NCBI RefSeq assembly: GCF_022206305.1
Contig: NZ_JAKOIW010000004.1
Coordinates: 1 to 64,000, forward strand
Origin: Gordonia sp. 'Campus'
GTDB taxonomy: Bacteria; Actinomycetota; Actinomycetes; Mycobacteriales; Mycobacteriaceae
Direction of reading: 5' to 3'
Length of the DNA stretch: 64,000 bases
Shown here: positions 3,295 to 46,415 of the stretch, piece after piece
How the letters are laid out: each line of letters begins with the position of its first letter
How positions within the stretch are numbered: position 1 is the stretch's first letter
Translations under genes and position numbers: made by a program
The notes under the pieces: model-generated
The model's input: the letters and a program-made list of their open reading frames with translations, nothing else
Told to the model about the DNA's origin: nothing
The model's database searches: none

Positions 3295-3489
3295 TCGGGT
3301 TCCTCCCACCGGCTCGGCCGGCCCGGTCGTGGCGCACGGACCCGGGTCCCGGCCTCGAAGACGAAGTCTCGAGCACGAAGTATAGGGACGGTCGCGTGAC
3401 CGGGCAGCGCGACGAACGCCGCCGTCGGTGCCCGGAAAGCGACCACCACGCGTTTGCCCCGCGACGTCGATCACCTAGGCTCTACAGGC

Positions 3490-4176
3490 GTGAAGCTGCC
3501 ATGGAAGAAGGACGACACGGAGGCGGAATCCGGCGAGAGCCCGGTGTCCACCTACACCGCCGACGAGTCCGGCGCCGACGTCGCGACGACCACCAAGGGC
3601 AGCAAGTACACCCCGGGCAAGGGCCGCCCGACGCCGTCCCGGCGTCAGGCCGAGAACAAGCGTCGCGGGCCCGTCGCACCTCCCCCGACGAACCGGTCCG
3701 AGGCGCGGGCCCGCAAGAAGGAATTGAAGTCCACGCTCACCAAAGAGGAAAAGCGTGCGCTCTCCGCGGAGCGCCGGGAGAAGCGACTCCAACAGCGCGA
3801 GCGGATGATGGCCGGCGACGAGGCCTATCTCATGCCGCGCGACAAGGGTCCCGCGCGTCGTTATGTGCGTGACATCGTCGACGCCCGACGCAACTTCGCC
3901 GGGCTGTTCATGCCGTTCGCCATCCTGCTGATCGTGCTGATGTTCCTCGTGCCGCAGGCGGCGGCGCTGACCAACCTGATCCTGGTCGCCTTCGTCGTCC
4001 TGATGGCCATCGACGGCGTCATCCTGGGCCGCATGGTGAACCGCCGTGTCGCCGAACGCTTCCCCGAATCCGGAGACGGCGGCTTCAAGCTGGGCTGGTA
4101 CGCCTTCACCCGCGCCATGCAGCTGCGCAAGATGCGGGCACCCAAGCCGATGGTCACCCACGGCGACGAAGTCTGA
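3490..4176 (+). CDS. DUF3043 membrane protein
   Basis: A 228-residue protein matching the DUF3043 family (M. tuberculosis Rv2206). The first 120 residues are highly charged (Lys/Arg/Glu-rich). Two transmembrane helices follow at about 134-175 (LFMPFAILLIVLMFLV and LILVAFVVLMAIDGVIL). The motif GDEAYLMPRDKGPARRYVRD just before the membrane is the family hallmark. The GTG at 3490 (VKLPWKKDD) was chosen because it matches the family N-terminus. Function is unknown. It is followed three bases later by cobU-cobT, so the genes are probably co-transcribed. Confidence 0.85.
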   Translation: MKLPWKKDDTEAESGESPVSTYTADESGADVATTTKGSKYTPGKGRPTPSRRQAENKRRGPVAPPPTNRSEARARKKELKSTLTKEEKRALSAERREKRLQQRERMMAGDEAYLMPRDKGPARRYVRDIVDARRNFAGLFMPFAILLIVLMFLVPQAAALTNLILVAFVVLMAIDGVILGRMVNRRVAERFPESGDGGFKLGWYAFTRAMQLRKMRAPKPMVTHGDEV

Positions 4177-4179
4177 TCG

Positions 4180-6015
4180 ATGACCGATCGCGCGATGCGC
4201 ACCCTGGTCCTGGGCGGTGTGCGTTCGGGTAAGTCGGCGCACGGCGAATCGCTGCTCGGCGACCACCGCCAGATCCGCTACCTGGCCACGGGCCCCCTCA
4301 CCTCTTCAGACGGCGAGTGGATGGAGCGGGTCCGCACCCACCGCGAGCGCCGCGACGACCGGTACACCACGATCGAGACCACCGATCTTGGTCAGGCGTT
4401 GCGGGCGGCACCAGACATCCCGGCTCTCGTCGACGATCTGGGCAGCTGGCTCACCGCGCAGATCGACGCCGTCCACGGGTGGACTACGGACGTCGCGATC
4501 GACCTCGAGGACCAGATCACCGACCTGTGTGATGCCCTCGCCGCGATGGCCGCCGATGTGGTGCTGATCAGTCCCGAGGTGGGGCTGAGTCTCGTTCCAC
4601 CGACCCCTGCCGGCCGCATCTTCCAGGACCTCCTGGGCACCCTCAACACCCGGGTCGCCGACGCGTGCGATCGAGTCCAGCTCGTCGTCGCCGGACGGGT
4701 TCTCGACCTTCCGCGGCCCGGCGACACCGCGAGCCCCCGAGGATCGGACCGCGACGCAGAGCCGGGCCATGGGCGGTCACCGTCTCCGACCGTCGCTCCG
4801 GTTCCGACACCGGCCCCGACGGTCGACGCCACCGATCTCGACGCGAGCGCGACTGCCGCCGGCCAGACCGGGGCGGCGCGCACCGACGCTGCCTCCCCGA
4901 CGTCCTACGACCGTCCCGACCCGACCGACGCCGAGGTCTTCGCTCCCATCACGCCGCCCGACGAAGCCGTCGCCCGGGCAGCCCGCGAACGCCAGGCGAT
5001 CCTCACCAAGCCGCCGGGCTCGCTCGGCCGCGTCGAGGAGATCGGGGTGTGGATAGCCGCGTGCCAGGGCCAGTGCCCGCCCACCGCCCTCACCTCCCCC
5101 ACCGTCGTCGTGTTCGCCGGCGATCACGGTGTCGCCGGCGGCGGGGTGTCGGCGTTCCCACCCGAGGTGACCGCGCAGATGGTCGCGAACATCGCGGCCG
5201 GTGGCGCGGCGGTGAACGTCCTCGCCGAACGTGCCGGCGCAACGGTCCAGGTCGTCGACATGTCCGTCGACGCCGACACCGACCCCCATGTGTCGCGGTA
5301 CAAGGTCCGCCGCAGCAGCGACGACCTGCGCACCTCCGACGCCATCTCACTCGAACAGGCGCGCATGGCCCTCGCCGCGGGCCGCGCGATCGCCGACGAA
5401 CTCGTCGACTCGGGCACCGGTCTTCTCATCGCGGGTGACATGGGCATCGGCAACACCACACCGGCGACCGTGCTCGTGGGTGCGCTCACCCGTCGCGAGC
5501 CGGTCGAGATCGTGGGCCGCGGCACCGGGATCGACGACACGGGCTGGATGCGCAAGACGGCGGCCATCCGCGACGGAATGCGCCGCGCACGCAAGGTCGT
5601 TCACGATCCGCTGGCGCTGCTGGCTGCCGTCGGCGGAGCCGACCTCACCGCGACAGCGGGGTTCCTGGCCCAGGCCGCGTTGCGTCGGACACCGGTCATC
5701 CTCGACGGTGTCGTGGTCACCGCGGCCGCCATGGTCGCCAACGAACTCGCGCCCGGCGCGATGCGGTGGTGGATCGCCGGTCACCGGTCGGTCGAGCCCG
5801 CCCACCAGATCGCGCTCGAACACCTCGATCTCGAACCCGTCCTCGACCTCTCGATGCGCCTCGGCGAGGGCAGCGGCGCGGTGCTCGCGCTTCCCATCGT
5901 GCAGTCCGCCACCGATCTGCTGTTCTCGATGGCGACGTTCGACGAGGCAGGTGTGAGCGACAAGACGGCGTCGGACGCCGCGGTCGCCGAGACCGTCGAG
6001 GCCGGAAAGTCCTGA
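4180..6015 (+). CDS. cobU-cobT: Bifunctional cobinamide kinase/guanylyltransferase - nicotinate-nucleotide:DMB phosphoribosyltransferase (CobU-CobT fusion)
   Basis: A 611-residue fusion of two steps of cobalamin nucleotide-loop assembly. Residues 1-185 are CobU: P-loop GGVRSGKS (12-19), and [14 protein letters not shown] followed by a [10 protein letters not shown] strand end. A proline/alanine/aspartate-rich linker (about 186-245) follows. Residues about 246-600 are CobT, which activates dimethylbenzimidazole to alpha-ribazole phosphate: [38 protein letters not shown], and the C-terminal [13 protein letters not shown] with the proposed catalytic Glu. In M. tuberculosis the two enzymes are separate genes. 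cobS follows, making a three-step module. The ATG at 4180 is the only good start. Confidence 0.93.
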
Positions 6016-6025
6016 CCCGCAGCGT

Positions 6026-6814
6026 GTGTCGATGATCTCACCGGGACGTGCGGTCCGAACCGCAGTCACCTGGCTGACGGTGGTCCCCGTCGCCGAGCGG
6101 CATGTGGACACCGCACCTGACCGCGCACTCGGCGGCGCTGTGATGGCCTCGGTGCCCGCGATCGGCGCGGCCCTCGGCGCCGTTGCCGCCGGCCTGGCAT
6201 TCGGACTGTCGCACACCGGATTGCCGGTGGCGCTCATCGGTGTCCTGCTCGTCGCCGCGCTCGCCGCGCTCACGCGGGGAATGCACCTCGACGGCCTCGC
6301 CGACACAGCCGACGGTCTGGGCTGCTACGGCCCGCCGGAACGGGTCACCGAGGTGATGCGCAGCGGGACGGTCGGGCCGTTCGGGGTGGCGACACTGCTG
6401 CTCACCCTGGCTGTCCAGGCGACCGGCTTTGCCGGACTCACCGACGAGAATCGTTGGTACGCCGTCGCATTCGCCATCGCCGTCGGGCGACTCGGGGCGG
6501 TCATCGCCACGCGCCGCGCACTGACGCCGGCCCACCCCGACGGTTTCGGCGCGCTGGTCGCCGGAACCCAGCACGTCTCGATCGCCGTGTGGTGTGGCAT
6601 CGCACTGCTGGCAACGGCGCCACTCGGGTTGGGTGGCACCGGTTTCGATCCCGTGCCGGTCGTGCAGGGTGCGGGGGTCGTCGTCGTGGTCGCCGGGTTC
6701 GCGTGGTTGTTCACCCGTCACTGCGCGCGGCGGATGGGTGGGGTGACCGGCGACGTCCTGGGTGGGACGATCGAACTCGGCGTCGCGATCGCCCTCGTCG
6801 GTCTGCTGCTCTGA
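6026..6814 (+). CDS. cobS: Adenosylcobinamide-GDP ribazoletransferase (cobalamin synthase)
   Basis: A 262-residue integral membrane protein that joins AdoCbi-GDP to alpha-ribazole (phosphate), the last steps of B12 synthesis. Hydrophobic segments occur throughout. The conserved metal-binding stretch RGMHLDGLADTADGLGCYG is near residues 91-109, and RSGTVGPFG follows. It starts ten bases after cobU-cobT, so it is co-transcribed and receives the products of that fusion enzyme. Start could be GTG 6026 or ATG 6032; neither has a clear Shine-Dalgarno at ideal spacing. Confidence 0.92.
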   Translation: MSMISPGRAVRTAVTWLTVVPVAERHVDTAPDRALGGAVMASVPAIGAALGAVAAGLAFGLSHTGLPVALIGVLLVAALAALTRGMHLDGLADTADGLGCYGPPERVTEVMRSGTVGPFGVATLLLTLAVQATGFAGLTDENRWYAVAFAIAVGRLGAVIATRRALTPAHPDGFGALVAGTQHVSIAVWCGIALLATAPLGLGGTGFDPVPVVQGAGVVVVVAGFAWLFTRHCARRMGGVTGDVLGGTIELGVAIALVGLLL

Positions 6815-6815
6815 C

Positions 6816-6847
6816 CCGGCGGCCCGGCCGCGAGGCGGGGCCGCCGG
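6816..6847. terminator. Bidirectional hairpin between cobS and ilvE
   Basis: The arms CCGGCGGCCC (6816-6825) and GGGCCGCCGG (6838-6847) form a perfect 10-bp stem between two convergent genes. There is no U-tract, as is common in actinobacteria. Confidence 0.65.
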
Positions 6848-6853
6848 TAGGCC

Positions 6854-7963
6854 TCAGCGGCGGTAGAGCTCCGTCATCCACCCGTGGGTGTCGGCGAACG
6901 TTCCACGCTGGATGCCCGTCAGGGTGTCTCGCAACGCCTGCGTGACCTCGCCGGTCTCTCCGTTGTTGATGGTGTAGTCCTCGCCACCCTCGCCCTTGAC
7001 CCGGCCGACGGGGGTGATCACGGCGGCGGTGCCGCACGCGAAGACCTCGGTGATGTCGCCGGAGGCCACACCCTTGCGCAGCTCCTCGGTGGTGATCTTG
7101 CGTTCCTCGACCTCGAACCCGGCATCGGTGGCCAGGGTGAGCAGAGACGAACGGGTGATACCGGGGAGGAGTGAGCCCGAGAGTTCGGGGGTCACCAGAC
7201 GCGCGTCGGCACCGGAGCCGAACACGAAGAACAGGTTCATGCCGCCCATCTCTTCGATGTAGCGGCGCTCCACGGCGTCGAGCCAGACGACCTGGTCACA
7301 ACCCTGCTCGGTGGCTTGGCGCTGCGCCAGGAAGGCGGCGGCGTAGTTGCCGCCGCATTTCGCGAAGCCGGTACCGCCGGGAGCGGCACGCACGTATTCG
7401 GTGGACAGCCAGACACTCACCGGCTTGATGCCGCCGGCGAAGTAGGCCCCGGCCGGGGAGGCGATGACGGCGTAGATGTACTGGGTCGACGGCGCGTTCA
7501 CGCCGAGACTGGCCTGTGAGGCGAACATGAACGGACGCAGGTAGAGCGACTCCTCGCCACCGGCGGCGGGAACCCACTCGTTGTCCGCGGCGAGGAGCGC
7601 CTCGAGCGACGCGAGGAAATCCTCGACGGGCAGGGCCGGCATCGCGAGGCGTTCGGCGCTGCGCTGCAGTCGTTCGGCGTTGGCCTCCGGGCGGAAGGCG
7701 GCGATCGAACCGTCGGGCTGACGATAGGCCTTGAGGCCTTCGAAGACCTCCTGGCCGTAGTGCAGGACCGTGGCCGCCGGATCCAGCGCGATCGGACCGT
7801 ACGGCTTGACCTTGGCGTTGTGCCAGCCCACCTCGGCGCCGTAGTCGATCATCACCATGTTGTCGGTGAAATGACGTCCGAATCCGGGGGCGGACAAGAT
7901 CTCCGCGCGCCGGCCCTCAGACACCGGGTGCGGGTGCTCGGTACGGTTGAACTCCAAGGTCAT
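6854..7963 (-). CDS. ilvE: Branched-chain amino acid aminotransferase
   Basis: A 369-residue fold-type IV PLP enzyme that interconverts Leu/Ile/Val and their 2-oxo acids. The Schiff-base lysine lies in [32 protein letters not shown] and [12 protein letters not shown] are family signatures. Length is normal for the actinobacterial class II enzymes and position matches Rv2210c. The ATG at 7963 gives [15 protein letters not shown], the typical start. Monocistronic: it converges on cobS and gcvT lies upstream on the same strand 90 bp away. Confidence 0.95.
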
Positions 7964-39466: not shown

Positions 39467-40454
39467 GCCGCCGCGCCGCGACGCCCAGGCCGGGGCGGGC
39501 CAGGACGGCGGCGGCACAGACCACCAACGTCGCCCGCTGCACGCGCCGTGACAGGGCCACGGCCGCGCGCAGGTCGGCAGGCCCGGGCACCGGCCCCGAA
39601 CCGAGCGTCGGACGCATCTCGACGCCGTGCGGATACACCGTCCGTCCGCCCAGCTGCACACCCAGCGCACCGGCGAAGCCCGCCTCGACGACACCCGCAT
39701 TGGGACTCGGATGGGCCCCGCTATCCCGTCGCCATGCCGCCGCGGCGCGTCTCGGCGCTCCCCCGACCACGACGATCAGCACGCCTGCGAGCCGGGCCGG
39801 CACCAGGTTCGCAACGTCATCGACGCGCGCTGCCGCCCAGCCGAACCGTCGGTATCTGTCGTTGCGGTAACCGACCATCGCGTCGAGGGTGTTGACCGCC
39901 CGATACCCCAACAGTCCGGGAACACCGGCCAGCGCTCCCCACACCAGCGGACCGACCGTGGCATCCGAGGTGTTCTCCGCGATCGACTCCAACGCCGCAC
40001 GGCACAGACCAGCCTCATCCAGCGACTCCGGATCGCGACCGCACAGGCTCGGGATCAACGCCCGCGCCGACCCCACATCGTCCGCGTCCAGCGCATCGGC
40101 CACCGCATCCCCCACCCGGCACAGCGACGTCCCGCCGAGCGCAACCCACGTCGCCGCCGCGGTCACACCGACCCTCCCCAGCAATGACGCACGTCTCTCG
40201 GCGACGATCGCCGACACCGCTGTCGACCCGACCATCACCGCCACCAAACCCACGCCCGCCACCCGCGAGTCGCGGTACAGCGCACGCTCGACCACACCGG
40301 CCAACCGACCGAAACCCGCGACCGGATGACCGCGCACCGGATCGCCGGCCCACTCGTCGATCACAAACCCCAGCGCGAGCCCGACCGCCGTCGACGCACC
40401 GCCACCGGCCCATCGGACAGGACGGCGGCGGGAAACGCTGGTCGGTCTCGGCAC
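39444..40454 (-). CDS. cobD: Adenosylcobinamide-phosphate synthase (CbiB/CobD)
   Basis: A 336-residue membrane protein of the CbiB family that attaches aminopropanol (phosphate) to adenosylcobyric acid. Signature blocks are DEWAGDPVRGHPVAGFGR, ESIAENTSDATVGPLVWGALAG, RAVNTLDAMVGYRNDRYRRFGW and AHPSPNAGVVEAGFAGALGVQLGG. Four or five hydrophobic segments are visible. GTG start at 40454. Works with CobC (35033) upstream of the CobU/CobT/CobS steps encoded at 4-7 kb. Confidence 0.94.
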   Translation of the reverse strand: MPRPTSVSRRRPVRWAGGGASTAVGLALGFVIDEWAGDPVRGHPVAGFGRLAGVVERALYRDSRVAGVGLVAVMVGSTAVSAIVAERRASLLGRVGVTAAATWVALGGTSLCRVGDAVADALDADDVGSARALIPSLCGRDPESLDEAGLCRAALESIAENTSDATVGPLVWGALAGVPGLLGYRAVNTLDAMVGYRNDRYRRFGWAAARVDDVANLVPARLAGVLIVVVGGAPRRAAAAWRRDSGAHPSPNAGVVEAGFAGALGVQLGGRTVYPHGVEMRPTLGSGPVPGPADLRAAVALSRRVQRATLVVCAAAVLARPGLGVAARRLSRRSVG

Positions 40455-40478
40455 CGCGCGATGGTAACCCGGCCCGCC

Positions 40479-40586
40479 GGGCCATCACGGCCCGCTCGCT
40501 CCGCTCCCGGCACCGGGCCATCACGGCCCGCTCGCTTCGCTCCCGGCGCCGGGCCATCACGGCCCGCTCGCTTCGCTCCCGGCGCC
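40479..40586. repeat. 36-bp tandem repeat, three copies (REP-like)
   Basis: The unit starting GGGCCATCACGGCCCGCTCG occurs at 40479, 40515 and 40551; copies 2 and 3 are identical and copy 1 has two substitutions. Each contains the inverted GGCC-ATCAC-GGCC and ends CCGGCGCC. It occupies the gap between divergent cobD and the methyltransferase-like gene. Being a multiple of three, it is open in frame with the following gene but precedes its GTG. Confidence 0.95.
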
Positions 40587-41697: not shown

Positions 41698-43665
41698 GTG
41701 ACCGATCCAACGTCACGGGCCGGCACCATGCTGGGTCCGTACCGCATCGACCGCCTGCTCGGGCGCGGCGGAATGGGCGAGGTCTACGAAGCCTTCGACA
41801 CCCTCCGCGAACGCCGCGTAGCACTCAAGGTACTGCCCCCACACCTGCTGCGGGACAAAGACTTCCGCGATCGATTCGAACGCGAGTCGAAAACCGCGGC
41901 CAAACTCTCCGACCCGCACGTCATCCCGATCCACGACTGGGGCGAGAAGGACGGCGTCCTCTTCATCGACATGCGACTCGTCGACGGACAGGATCTGCGC
42001 AAGCTCCTCGCGTCGGGACCGCTCACGCCGGGTCGCGCCGTCCACATCCTCGGACAGATCGCCTCGGCCCTCGACTCCGCACACCGTGATGGCCTAGTCC
42101 ACCGCGACATCAAACCCGACAACATCCTGGTCGACGCCGATGACTTCGCCTACCTCGTCGACTTCGGCATCGCGCAGGGCACCACCGACAGCCGGCTCAC
42201 CCAGATCGGCACGGCGCTCGGCACCCTCGCCTACATGGCCCCGGAGCGTTTCGGTGACGAGCCCGCCGGCCCCGGCTCCGACAACTACGCGCTCGCCTGC
42301 GTGTTGTACGAATGCGTCACCGGTCAGACCCCGTACCCGGCCAAGACCGACCAGGGCCTCATGACCGCCCACATCACCAAGGAACCGCCGAGGACCGGCG
42401 GACCGCTCGACCCGGTGATCGCGCGCGGTCTCGCGAAAGACCCGGCCGGTCGGTTCCCCACCGCCAGGGAACTCATCCGCGCCGCGTCGACGGCGCTGTC
42501 ATCGCCGCACGACAACACCCCGCCCGCACCACCCACCGTCACACCCCCGGTCATGCTGCCCCCGACGTACGCGCCCGGCGGCGCATCGGTGCAGCCCGGA
42601 TTCGGTGCGCCCGGCTCCCCCGTGCCCTCGGACCGCACCATCGTCTCCCCCGGCCAACCGACACCGGGCCATCGATCCGGACCCACCGGGGTGCCGTCGG
42701 ATCCGACTCTGGTCCGCGGACCCGGTTCGGGTCCCACGGTGTCCGGACCGCACTCCGGCGCCGGCGGCGGATTCCGCTCCCCGCCTGGAGCATCGGGGCC
42801 GCAAGCATTCTCGGGACCTCAGCCGTACTCGGGGCCCCAGTCGGCATATTCGGCATCGCATCTCGGCGGCGGTCAGTGGGGCCCCGGCCCCACACCGGGC
42901 ACGTCGCACACCGGTCGCAACATCGCCATCGCCGCCGGAGTCGGCCTCGTGGTCATCGTCCTCGCGGTGACGGGAATCGTTGTGGCGCTGTCGGGTTCCG
43001 ACGGCGGCGACCCACCACCGACGCCCAGCACGTCCACCAGCGCCCTACCAGCGGGCACCGTCGCATGCGACTACCCGGCGCGCGCGGCGGTCGGTGGCAT
43101 CACCCAGGCGAAACCCGCTCCGAGCCAGCCGAACACCGGCACGGTCGACGCGGAGATCCCGATCGCCGGTCAGGGCACCGTCAGCATGACGCTCGACCGC
43201 GCCGAGGCGCCCTGCAACGTCGGGGCCATGGTCTCGCTGATCAAGTCCGGTTTCTACAACAACAGCAAATGTCACCGGGCGTCCGACAAGTACTTGATCT
43301 GTGGATCGTCGGGCGGTCAGGAGGGCACCAACCCCGGCTGGACCAGTCCCGACGAACTGCCCGAAGGACTTCCGTCCGCAGGGACCGACGACGACGGCGT
43401 GCCACAGGTGACCTACCCGCGGGGCACGGTCGGAATCCTCGACCTCCCCGACGACGAGGGCGCCACCGGTTCGACCACCTTCTTCATGCTGACCGACGAC
43501 ACGGCCCTGCCACTGACCTACTCGATCGTCGGGACCGTGGACGCGTCCGGACTCGCCGTCCTCGACAAGATCGTGGCGGGTGGCTTCACGCCCAACGCTC
43601 CCGGCGCGGCGTCGGGACCCCCGAAGCAGAATCTCCTGATCCAGCGGGCCACCGTCGACGGGTGA
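41698..43665 (+). CDS. Receptor Ser/Thr protein kinase with extracellular cyclophilin-like domain
   Basis: A 655-residue transmembrane kinase. The Hanks-type kinase domain (about 13-270) has LGRGGMGEV (21-29), Lys44, HRDIKPDN (catalytic Asp137) and DFG (155-157). A Pro/Gly/Ser-rich juxtamembrane region (about 275-405) follows. One transmembrane helix is at about 408-431. The outside part (about 478-653) resembles a cyclophilin-type PPIase: GTVSMTLDRAEAPCNVGAMV, CHRASDKYLIC, GSTTFFML and YSIVGTV. The Arg and the Phe of the active site are kept, but the canonical Gln-Gly-Gly is replaced by Cys-Gly-Ser, so it may be a sensor rather than an enzyme. GTG start at 41698. The 278-bp gap before it contains no recognised gene. 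Confidence 0.9.
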   Translation: MTDPTSRAGTMLGPYRIDRLLGRGGMGEVYEAFDTLRERRVALKVLPPHLLRDKDFRDRFERESKTAAKLSDPHVIPIHDWGEKDGVLFIDMRLVDGQDLRKLLASGPLTPGRAVHILGQIASALDSAHRDGLVHRDIKPDNILVDADDFAYLVDFGIAQGTTDSRLTQIGTALGTLAYMAPERFGDEPAGPGSDNYALACVLYECVTGQTPYPAKTDQGLMTAHITKEPPRTGGPLDPVIARGLAKDPAGRFPTARELIRAASTALSSPHDNTPPAPPTVTPPVMLPPTYAPGGASVQPGFGAPGSPVPSDRTIVSPGQPTPGHRSGPTGVPSDPTLVRGPGSGPTVSGPHSGAGGGFRSPPGASGPQAFSGPQPYSGPQSAYSASHLGGGQWGPGPTPGTSHTGRNIAIAAGVGLVVIVLAVTGIVVALSGSDGGDPPPTPSTSTSALPAGTVACDYPARAAVGGITQAKPAPSQPNTGTVDAEIPIAGQGTVSMTLDRAEAPCNVGAMVSLIKSGFYNNSKCHRASDKYLICGSSGGQEGTNPGWTSPDELPEGLPSAGTDDDGVPQVTYPRGTVGILDLPDDEGATGSTTFFMLTDDTALPLTYSIVGTVDASGLAVLDKIVAGGFTPNAPGAASGPPKQNLLIQRATVDG

Positions 43666-44867: not shown

Positions 44868-46415
44868 GTGTCAGCATCCGTGAACGCCGGCGACCGACTC
44901 GGCCCCTACCTCATCGGCGAGTTGATCGGACGCGGCGGAATGGGTGAGGTGTACCGCGCCATCGACACCCGGAAGGATCGGGTGGTCGCGCTGAAGTTGC
45001 TGAACCCCCAGGTCGCCGACGACCCCGCGTTCCGCGACAGGTTCCATCGCGAATCCCGCGTCGCCGCCCAACTCAACGATCCGCACGTCATCCCGATCCA
45101 TGACTGGGGCGAGATCGAGGGACGTCTGTTCATCGACATGCGCCTGGTCGACGGCCGGGATCTGCGCACACTCCTCGTCGAGGATGGGCCGCTCCCGGCC
45201 GAACGTGCGCTGCGGATCGTCGGCCAGATCGGGGACGCGCTCGACGCGGCGCACCGTTCCGGCCTGGTCCACCGCGACGTCAAGCCCGACAACATCCTCG
45301 TCGACGGCCGAGACTTCGCATACCTCGTGGACTTCGGCCTGGCGCAGGCGGACACCGACACTCGTTTCACGAGCACCGGCACCGCTGTCGGTTCCTTCGG
45401 GTACATGGCGCCGGAACGATTCGGTGACGGCGCGGTGGGGGCGCCCGCGGACATCTACGCGCTGGCCTGCGTGCTCTTCGAATGCCTGTCCGGCACACAT
45501 CCCTTCGCGTCGGCGACCACCATCGAGCGGTTGATCGCGGCTCACCTGACAACCCCACCACCGCGTCTCGGCGGGCCCATCGACGAGGTCATCGGCCGCG
45601 GTATGGCGAAAGACCCTGCGCAGCGGCAGCATTCGGCCGCAGCTCTGGTCGCCGACGCGGAGGCCGCGGTGCGCTCGAAGCCTCTCGGTGGTGCGCCGAC
45701 ACTCATTCCGGCCGGGCCGCCGCGAGTCATTCCCGCCGGTCCGGCCGCGCCCACACTCGGCGGTCCGTCGGGCCCGAGCTCACCGTGGGATGCCACCAGG
45801 ACCGCGAGTCCGGCCCCGTCGCGCCGCCGATCGCCTGTGGTCCCGATCGTCGTGGCCACGGTTGTCGTCCTGCTGATCTGCGCCGGGGTCGTCGCCTGGG
45901 CGGTCGCCACCACCGACCGGGACAACCCGGCGACCGCGCGTGACGCTTCCGCACCGCCGACGACCACCGCGACACCAGCCTCACCAGCTCTGGTCTCGCC
46001 TGTGCCCGGACCCACTTCTGAACCTGGCCCAACGTCGCTACCCGGCCCCTCGCTCCAGCCGCCTACCCGTGCACCGCGCGCAGTCGTCCCAGGCGATCTC
46101 GGTCTCACAGTGCCGATGACACGACCTGCATGCGACGGTACGGGCATCGTCGTCGTCGCCAACGCGACTGCGCCCGGGACCTACGTCGCCGAGGTGCAGT
46201 CCTACCTCGACCGGCACCCAGGTGCGAGTTACCTCCGAACCGACCAATCATGCCCCTCACTGAGGCAGTCCTTCGACGACGGCAGCCCCATCTACTCGGT
46301 CTACTACGTGGCTGGTCGTACCCAGAACGAGATCTGCGAACTGCGAAACCGAGTCGGCGGGTATGGCAAGTGGCTCGACACGTCGTCGGACCCGGGGTCG
46401 CAGGTAGCCTGCTGA
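44868..46415 (+). CDS. Receptor Ser/Thr protein kinase with small Cys-rich extracellular domain
   Basis: A 515-residue kinase, paralogous to the one at 41698. The kinase domain has IGRGGMGEV (20-28), Lys43, HRDVKPDN (catalytic Asp137) and DFG. The pair share the stretch DPHVIPIHDWGE and the FAYLVDFG loop. One transmembrane helix is at about 324-347. The extracellular part has a Pro/Thr-rich stalk, then about 105 residues with four cysteines (PACDG, QSCPS, EICEL and the terminal VAC), likely two disulfides. No known ligand domain is recognised. GTG 44868 or 44880 may be the start. Confidence 0.88.
   Translation: MSASVNAGDRLGPYLIGELIGRGGMGEVYRAIDTRKDRVVALKLLNPQVADDPAFRDRFHRESRVAAQLNDPHVIPIHDWGEIEGRLFIDMRLVDGRDLRTLLVEDGPLPAERALRIVGQIGDALDAAHRSGLVHRDVKPDNILVDGRDFAYLVDFGLAQADTDTRFTSTGTAVGSFGYMAPERFGDGAVGAPADIYALACVLFECLSGTHPFASATTIERLIAAHLTTPPPRLGGPIDEVIGRGMAKDPAQRQHSAAALVADAEAAVRSKPLGGAPTLIPAGPPRVIPAGPAAPTLGGPSGPSSPWDATRTASPAPSRRRSPVVPIVVATVVVLLICAGVVAWAVATTDRDNPATARDASAPPTTTATPASPALVSPVPGPTSEPGPTSLPGPSLQPPTRAPRAVVPGDLGLTVPMTRPACDGTGIVVVANATAPGTYVAEVQSYLDRHPGASYLRTDQSCPSLRQSFDDGSPIYSVYYVAGRTQNEICELRNRVGGYGKWLDTSSDPGSQVAC

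Follow-up and report, generated by a model that had tools for sequence, protein, structure and literature searches.

What bacterial receptor kinases bind outside the cell is a long-standing open question, and a known fold with a mapped cleft standing outside a kinase would make it directly testable. The question is raised by a gene at positions 41,698 to 43,665 of a 64,000-nucleotide stretch of DNA (hereafter the window) from Gordonia sp. 'Campus' (contig NZ_JAKOIW010000004.1), in which an initial annotation had seen a Ser/Thr receptor kinase with a cyclophilin-like outer domain. Does this outer domain still act as a prolyl isomerase, or has an enzyme become a sensor? With moderate confidence, we favor the view that the protein is a one-pass receptor kinase whose outer PpiB-type cyclophilin has been converted into a largely non-catalytic ligand-binding module, a view that draws on sequence comparison and structure prediction.

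Domain layout of the kinase-cyclophilin protein

The gene and its parts are as follows.

41698..43665, + strand: whole gene, Ser/Thr kinase, transmembrane helix and PpiB-type cyclophilin in this order; 655 amino acids, GTG start
41725..42513, + strand: kinase domain, predicted to be cytosolic, about residues 10-272, with catalytic Lys44, HRD135 and DFG155 (PF00069 and motif positions)
42514..42909, + strand: Gly/Pro/Ser-rich linker, residues 273-404, the fastest-evolving part, with a ratio of nonsynonymous to synonymous substitution rates (dN/dS) of 0.28-0.50 in six comparisons
42922..42990, + strand: transmembrane helix, about residues 409-431 (hydropathy maximum 2.84)
43060..43662, + strand: ectodomain, residues 455-655, predicted cyclophilin fold (AlphaFold2; Foldseek, VIA-align)
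43162..43653, + strand: PF00160 match, residues 489-652 (Pfam)

The kinase domain is of the Hanks type, with a PF00069 match (E 3.6e-42; best stretch, residues 15-227) and the catalytic Lys, HRD and DFG motifs, and NCBIfam stretches reach residues 272-277. Hydropathy along the protein displayed a single clear maximum, suggesting one transmembrane helix, with the C-terminal side probably facing outward. The cyclophilin-like character of this outer domain was borne out: PF00160 matched with a score of 44.2 bits against a curated cut-off of 21.7, and the fold check that had been suggested for the ectodomain, by structure prediction and Foldseek, returned a cyclophilin barrel with a predicted local distance difference test score (pLDDT) of 91.5, placing the domain in the cyclophilin family. 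The protein shares its kinase family, a transmembrane segment and an outer sensor with the PknB-type PASTA kinases (NCBIfam PknB_PASTA, 263 bits over residues 14-277, below the cut-off of 450); these kinases carry PASTA domains, whereas no PASTA repeat was present among the eight Pfam families matching the window protein (E up to 1).

The architecture of kinase, transmembrane segment and peptidyl-prolyl isomerase has been known since 2005. In the available part of Krupa and Srinivasan 2005 (PMC1262709), it is reported as a single case from M. avium subsp. paratuberculosis (gi|41407147), which is called a novel kinase that probably assists folding. Its domain order is the same as that of the window protein, and it is by domain order alone that we liken the two; the account given there, as far as this part of the paper extends, is without residue analysis, other lineages or catalytic decay. 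The mycobacterial fusions that we found form a group separate from those of Gordonia. In the open full-text literature, which excludes subscription papers, the matches listed included no other title or abstract start on the architecture, on how it recurs or on the decay of its catalytic site, and no paper on a characterized kinase-cyclophilin. The initial statement that no characterized cyclophilin kinase was known therefore stands for the literature searched, but the architecture itself had already been listed (PMC1262709, available part); for its recurrence and catalytic decay, no description was found in the same literature.

Catalytic residues are lost in the Gordonia ectodomains

Residues are numbered as in human cyclophilin A. 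The catalytic center was read from an alignment of the PpiA protein of the same genome with 100 PpiB-type domains, comprising 20 fused domains from Gordonia, 31 fused domains from Actinomadura and its relatives, and 49 free domains. We take His54, Asn102 and Gln111 to be active-site positions of cyclophilins. The active-site list in the available part of Davis et al. 2010 (PMC2911226) consists of Arg55, Phe60, Met61, Gln63, Ala101, Phe113, Trp121, Leu122 and His126. The following positions of the window protein were assigned by alignment.

43276..43278, + strand: Arg527, equivalent of Arg55, kept
43297..43299, + strand: Ile534 at the Gln63 position (Gln lost)
43300..43302, + strand: Cys535, the cysteine typical of the PpiB family; the Gordonia kinases conserve it together with Cys457, Cys506 and Cys525 (four Cys in total)
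43441..43443, + strand: Asp582 at the Asn102 position
43477..43479, + strand: Thr594 at the Gln111 position (Gln lost)

Arg55 and Phe113 are kept in the window protein, while Gln63, Gln111 and Asn102 are replaced by Ile, Thr and Asp, so that the residue set of a competent cyclophilin is incomplete and the altered catalytic center that had been proposed is supported. The specific replacement named at the time, Cys-Gly-Ser for the Gln-Gly-Gly (QGG) motif, was one residue off: with the PpiA of the genome as reference, the motif aligns with Ile534-Cys535-Gly536, and the Cys stands at the first Gly. Nor is this Cys specific to the kinase. It occupies that position in 100/100 PpiB-type domains, the 49 free ones included, and since it is a trait of the PpiB family it is no novelty of the fusion. 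Because M. tuberculosis PpiB is reported as an active isomerase in the available part of PMC4794191, a family-wide Cys alone need not imply lost activity. The Trp/His region does differ in the window domain, as had been noted, but free PpiB proteins also deviate at the Trp and His positions and the difference is not kinase-specific.

Across the Gordonia kinase-fused domains, Gln63 is lost in 20/20 (Ile in 15, Leu in 2, Val in 2, Phe in 1), Gln111 likewise in 20/20 (Thr in 15, Met in 2, Ser in 2, Lys in 1), Ala101 in 20/20 and Asn102 in 14/20. All of the 49 free PpiB domains have Arg55, Gln63, Gln111 and Phe113 intact. The main group of mycobacterial fusions (18 domains) has lost His54 in 18, Phe113 in 16, Gln63 in 11 and Arg55 in 6, and has kept Gln111 in 17. 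Judging from these alignments, the substitutions by which the catalytic residues decayed were not the same in Gordonia as in the main mycobacterial clade.

Conservation of the four cysteines in 20/20 Gordonia kinases could also be explained by a redox sensor, in which kinase activity would depend on the state of disulfides between them. PknE has a thioredoxin/DsbG-like outer domain; it resembles the window protein in using the fold of a protein-folding enzyme as a kinase ectodomain, and differs from it in fold and chemistry. A DSBA-like kinase of M. tuberculosis is described in the available part of PMC1262709. However, three of the four cysteines are common to 47-49 of the 49 free PpiB domains and to 31/31 Actinomadura-type fusions, and because nearly all of the former and all of the latter carry them, the shared cysteines look structural. 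We regard a redox sensor as very improbable.

The ectodomain derives from PpiB and is under purifying selection

The nearest free relative found for the ectodomain was the actinobacterial membrane cyclophilin PpiB; the ectodomain is 45% identical to the free PpiB encoded in its own genome. In the tree, the Gordonia fused cyclophilins and the free PpiB proteins of Gordonia and Williamsia formed one side of a branch with a support of 100, and this grouping, together with the PpiB cysteines, points to PpiB ancestry for the domain, as distinct from the whole protein. The free copy, at C12, lies between genes that resemble glyoxalase II and relA; the window gene is itself no free PpiB, being fused to a kinase and standing apart from glyoxalase II/relA. 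The free copy has a short N-terminal tail and keeps Gln63, Gln111 and Asn102, whereas in the window protein the kinase replaces the tail and both Gln residues are lost. The ectodomain and PpiB of the Rv2582 type have the same Cys in the QGG motif and, apparently, similar anchoring with the N-terminus inside and the C-terminus outside.

The fused Gordonia gene is under purifying selection: the dN/dS of the cyclophilin domain was 0.10-0.24, similar to that of the kinase domain (approximate values, at a dS of 0.6-1.2). Because the fold and overall constraint have been kept while the catalytic residues were lost, we read the ectodomain as a putative ligand-binding module derived from an isomerase. 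A decaying fusion without a present sensing role would account for those mycobacterial and Actinomadura copies that have the kinase and cyclophilin in different frames; against this, the Gordonia cyclophilin domain is constrained like the kinase domain, and the gene neighbors, a spermidine-synthase-like gene and an MDMPI gene, have been retained across the named Gordonia loci (upstream neighbor in 9/9; downstream neighbor in 7/9, L035 ending with its contig and L041 giving no such gene). We consider decay extremely improbable.

In the main mycobacterial group, the active-site columns were more variable than the rest of the domain (1.53 vs 0.89). The effect was smaller when split by gene copy (1.26 vs 0.77, and 0.60 vs 0.48), so part of it is a difference between paralogues.

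Recurrence and probable independent origins of the fusion

A survey of kinase-cyclophilin architectures, which had been suggested at the outset, found the fusion to be recurrent. In Gordonia, 20 fused genes were present in 19/59 genomes, the window's included, all matches with open frames of 500 or more amino acids having been read and tested; they occurred in G. lacunae, alkanivorans, namibiensis, amicalis, paraffinivorans, soli, effusa and asplenii and in Gordonia sp. ABSL49_1. Eleven of the 80 named loci were fused, namely nine from Gordonia and those of Actinomadura sp. KC06 and KC216. The fusion was found in at least 29/65 Actinomadura genomes, a count that excludes two matches cut by contig ends (L158 and L164) and two with the kinase and cyclophilin in different frames (L163 and L212) and leaves out three matches with frames of 535-543 amino acids; two further cases came from other genomes of the same family. 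At least 12/248 Mycobacterium genomes carried it. Among the Mycobacterium genomes with four or more matches, 11/12 held at least one intact fusion; G124, chosen since an earlier stretch had shown a kinase start beside ppiB, was fused too, and no fusion was seen beside ppiB in 19 further Mycobacterium genomes hand-picked among the matches listed. A simple pattern for Lys, HRD, DFG and a transmembrane segment was passed by 20/20 Gordonia, 27/31 Actinomadura-type and 18/20 mycobacterial genes; the six genes that failed did so on the Lys part, and one of the six is an incomplete kinase piece.

The wider surveys covered 401 genomes of the family, 397 of the order, 296 of the class and 120 of the family of Actinomadura, by best matches only, so that absence elsewhere is not implied. 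Twenty of the long-frame stretches from the genus, family and order surveys yielded two fused genes, both from Gordonia, and the frames of at least 500 amino acids among the listed class and Actinomadura-family matches, excluding those already tested, yielded two of the Actinomadura type. On plasmids, 15 records matched, of which 14 were annotated as peptidylprolyl isomerase and one had no feature; no kinase was annotated under these matches. Stops, frame changes or sequencing errors were observed in some mycobacterial and Actinomadura copies (L272, L277 and L280; L163 and L212).

In trees of both the cyclophilin and the kinase domains, the fusions of Gordonia, of the Actinomadura type and of the main mycobacterial group fell in different places; these were quick trees with the Shimodaira-Hasegawa-like approximate likelihood ratio test (SH-aLRT) as their only support, and the naming of some groups followed inspection of an earlier tree. 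The approximately unbiased (AU) test rejected a single clade of Gordonia and Actinomadura-type fusions (cyclophilin p 0.0048, kinase p 2.3e-5), of Gordonia and main mycobacterial fusions (p 0.005 and 0.0047 on the two domains), and of Actinomadura-type and main mycobacterial fusions (cyclophilin p 0.02, the weakest rejection; kinase p 2.2e-6). For the fusion L281 of the mycobacterial genome G1344, a common clade with the remaining mycobacterial ones was likewise rejected (p 2.0e-7 and 8.5e-5), and in the trees L281 pairs with the free ppiB of its own genome and with another kinase group. By contrast, a single origin of L275_2616, L283 and the main mycobacterial group was not rejected (p 0.155 and 0.79), and the first two were therefore not counted as separate fusions. 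Barring a misleading effect of domain exchange or gene conversion, the trees imply a minimum of four fusion events. The L281 fusion looks recent, its cyclophilin being nearly identical to the free ppiB of the genome, and the fused gene is immediately followed by a second kinase gene.

Some of the Mycobacterium loci (L270-L280 and L284) have one or two kinase-cyclophilin genes between ppiB and relA, an interval in which other mycobacterial species have either a second free ppiB or no such gene. Because the main-group fusions occupy the position of this second free ppiB beside relA, the gene of the stringent response, a duplicated ppiB is suggested as their raw material. More tentatively, Actinomycetota may repeatedly have made PpiB a kinase sensor, by at least four fusions (in Gordonia, in Actinomadura and its relatives, at the ppiB-relA site of Mycobacterium, and in one further mycobacterial genome), after which the active site would have decayed in parallel by different substitutions, giving pseudo-cyclophilin receptors that reuse the old cleft for new ligands, possibly reporting the state of secreted proteins.

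A possible sensing mechanism and its alternatives

In the mechanism that we propose, a duplicated isomerase would have kept its membrane-anchored, outward placement and its fold, with a kinase replacing its short cytosolic tail. The cyclophilin cleft or surface may bind a segment, probably proline-containing, from a protein that is secreted or belongs to the envelope, or from one that was once a client of PpiB. The initial annotation had likewise supposed that the domain may read peptides with proline or the folding of secreted proteins. Such binding or clustering would bring kinase domains together, presumably as dimers, leading to altered autophosphorylation and perhaps to effects on downstream targets.

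Several points weigh against this proposal. The alignments used for fold prediction included canonical PpiB proteins, which biases the result toward a cyclophilin fold. Arg55 is retained in 18/20 and Phe113 in 17/20 Gordonia kinase domains, leaving room for residual isomerase activity in these ectodomains, and Arg55, Gln63, Gln111 and Phe113 are all intact in 31/31 Actinomadura-type fusions, so that catalytic loss does not go with the architecture as a rule. The former cleft in Gordonia is no more conserved than the rest of the domain, which fits a changed ligand but would also fit an unused cleft.

The residues retained in both lineages would suit an ectodomain that is still an isomerase or foldase for secreted proteins, with a kinase that regulates or reports folding. 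For the M. avium subsp. paratuberculosis protein, such a folding role has already been proposed in print by Krupa and Srinivasan (PMC1262709, available part), and the reported activity of free M. tuberculosis PpiB (PMC4794191, available part) agrees with it. However, Gln63 and Gln111 are missing from all of the Gordonia kinase domains and Arg55 from two, and the Gordonia site is under no extra constraint; we consider continued isomerase function quite unlikely.

The ectodomain might also be a docking or dimerization module whose working surface lies at a distance from the old active site, in the manner of some spliceosomal cyclophilins, for example by binding PpiB or another envelope protein; this would agree with a conserved fold and four conserved cysteines around an unconserved cleft. 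To our knowledge, the human cyclophilins without detected activity are not fused to kinases. They resemble the window protein in combining the cyclophilin fold with an active site that has degenerated, and the available part of Davis et al. 2010 (PMC2911226) gives PPIL2, PPIL6, SDCCAG-10 and PPIL4 as members without detected activity and describes contacts of PPIH and PPIL1 off the active site. We hold this docking or dimerization alternative to be rather unlikely.

Conversion into a ligand-binding module would be open to direct study, as the ectodomain is of small size and should, by prediction, fold well, its ligand class can be guessed, and the intact catalytic centers of Actinomadura and the decayed ones of Gordonia and Mycobacterium provide a natural comparison. 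Repeated independent fusion with parallel catalytic loss would, if true, show instructively how an enzyme can turn into a receptor, and the apparently repeated fusions point to a mode of detecting extracellular proteins that has not been described.

Neighborhood of the gene in Gordonia

One further receptor-type kinase gene lies just downstream in the window.

44868..46415, + strand: second Ser/Thr kinase with a different ectodomain (start codon estimated)

Its kinase domain sits beside those of the cyclophilin kinases in the tree and is closely related to them, and the part scanned gave no Pfam match besides the kinase. This second kinase is also present in L039 and L040 and is absent from L036-L038, where a WYL regulator comes directly next. 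Upstream of the spermidine-synthase-like gene, at about 40420-40580 of the window (position estimated), there is a short in-phase tandem repeat that shows up in several overlapping frames, with ERSERAVMAR repeated in translation. In another Gordonia genome (G048; L128, positions 3319-7654), a free PpiB-type cyclophilin is followed directly by a different kinase gene, an unfused pairing of the two functions.
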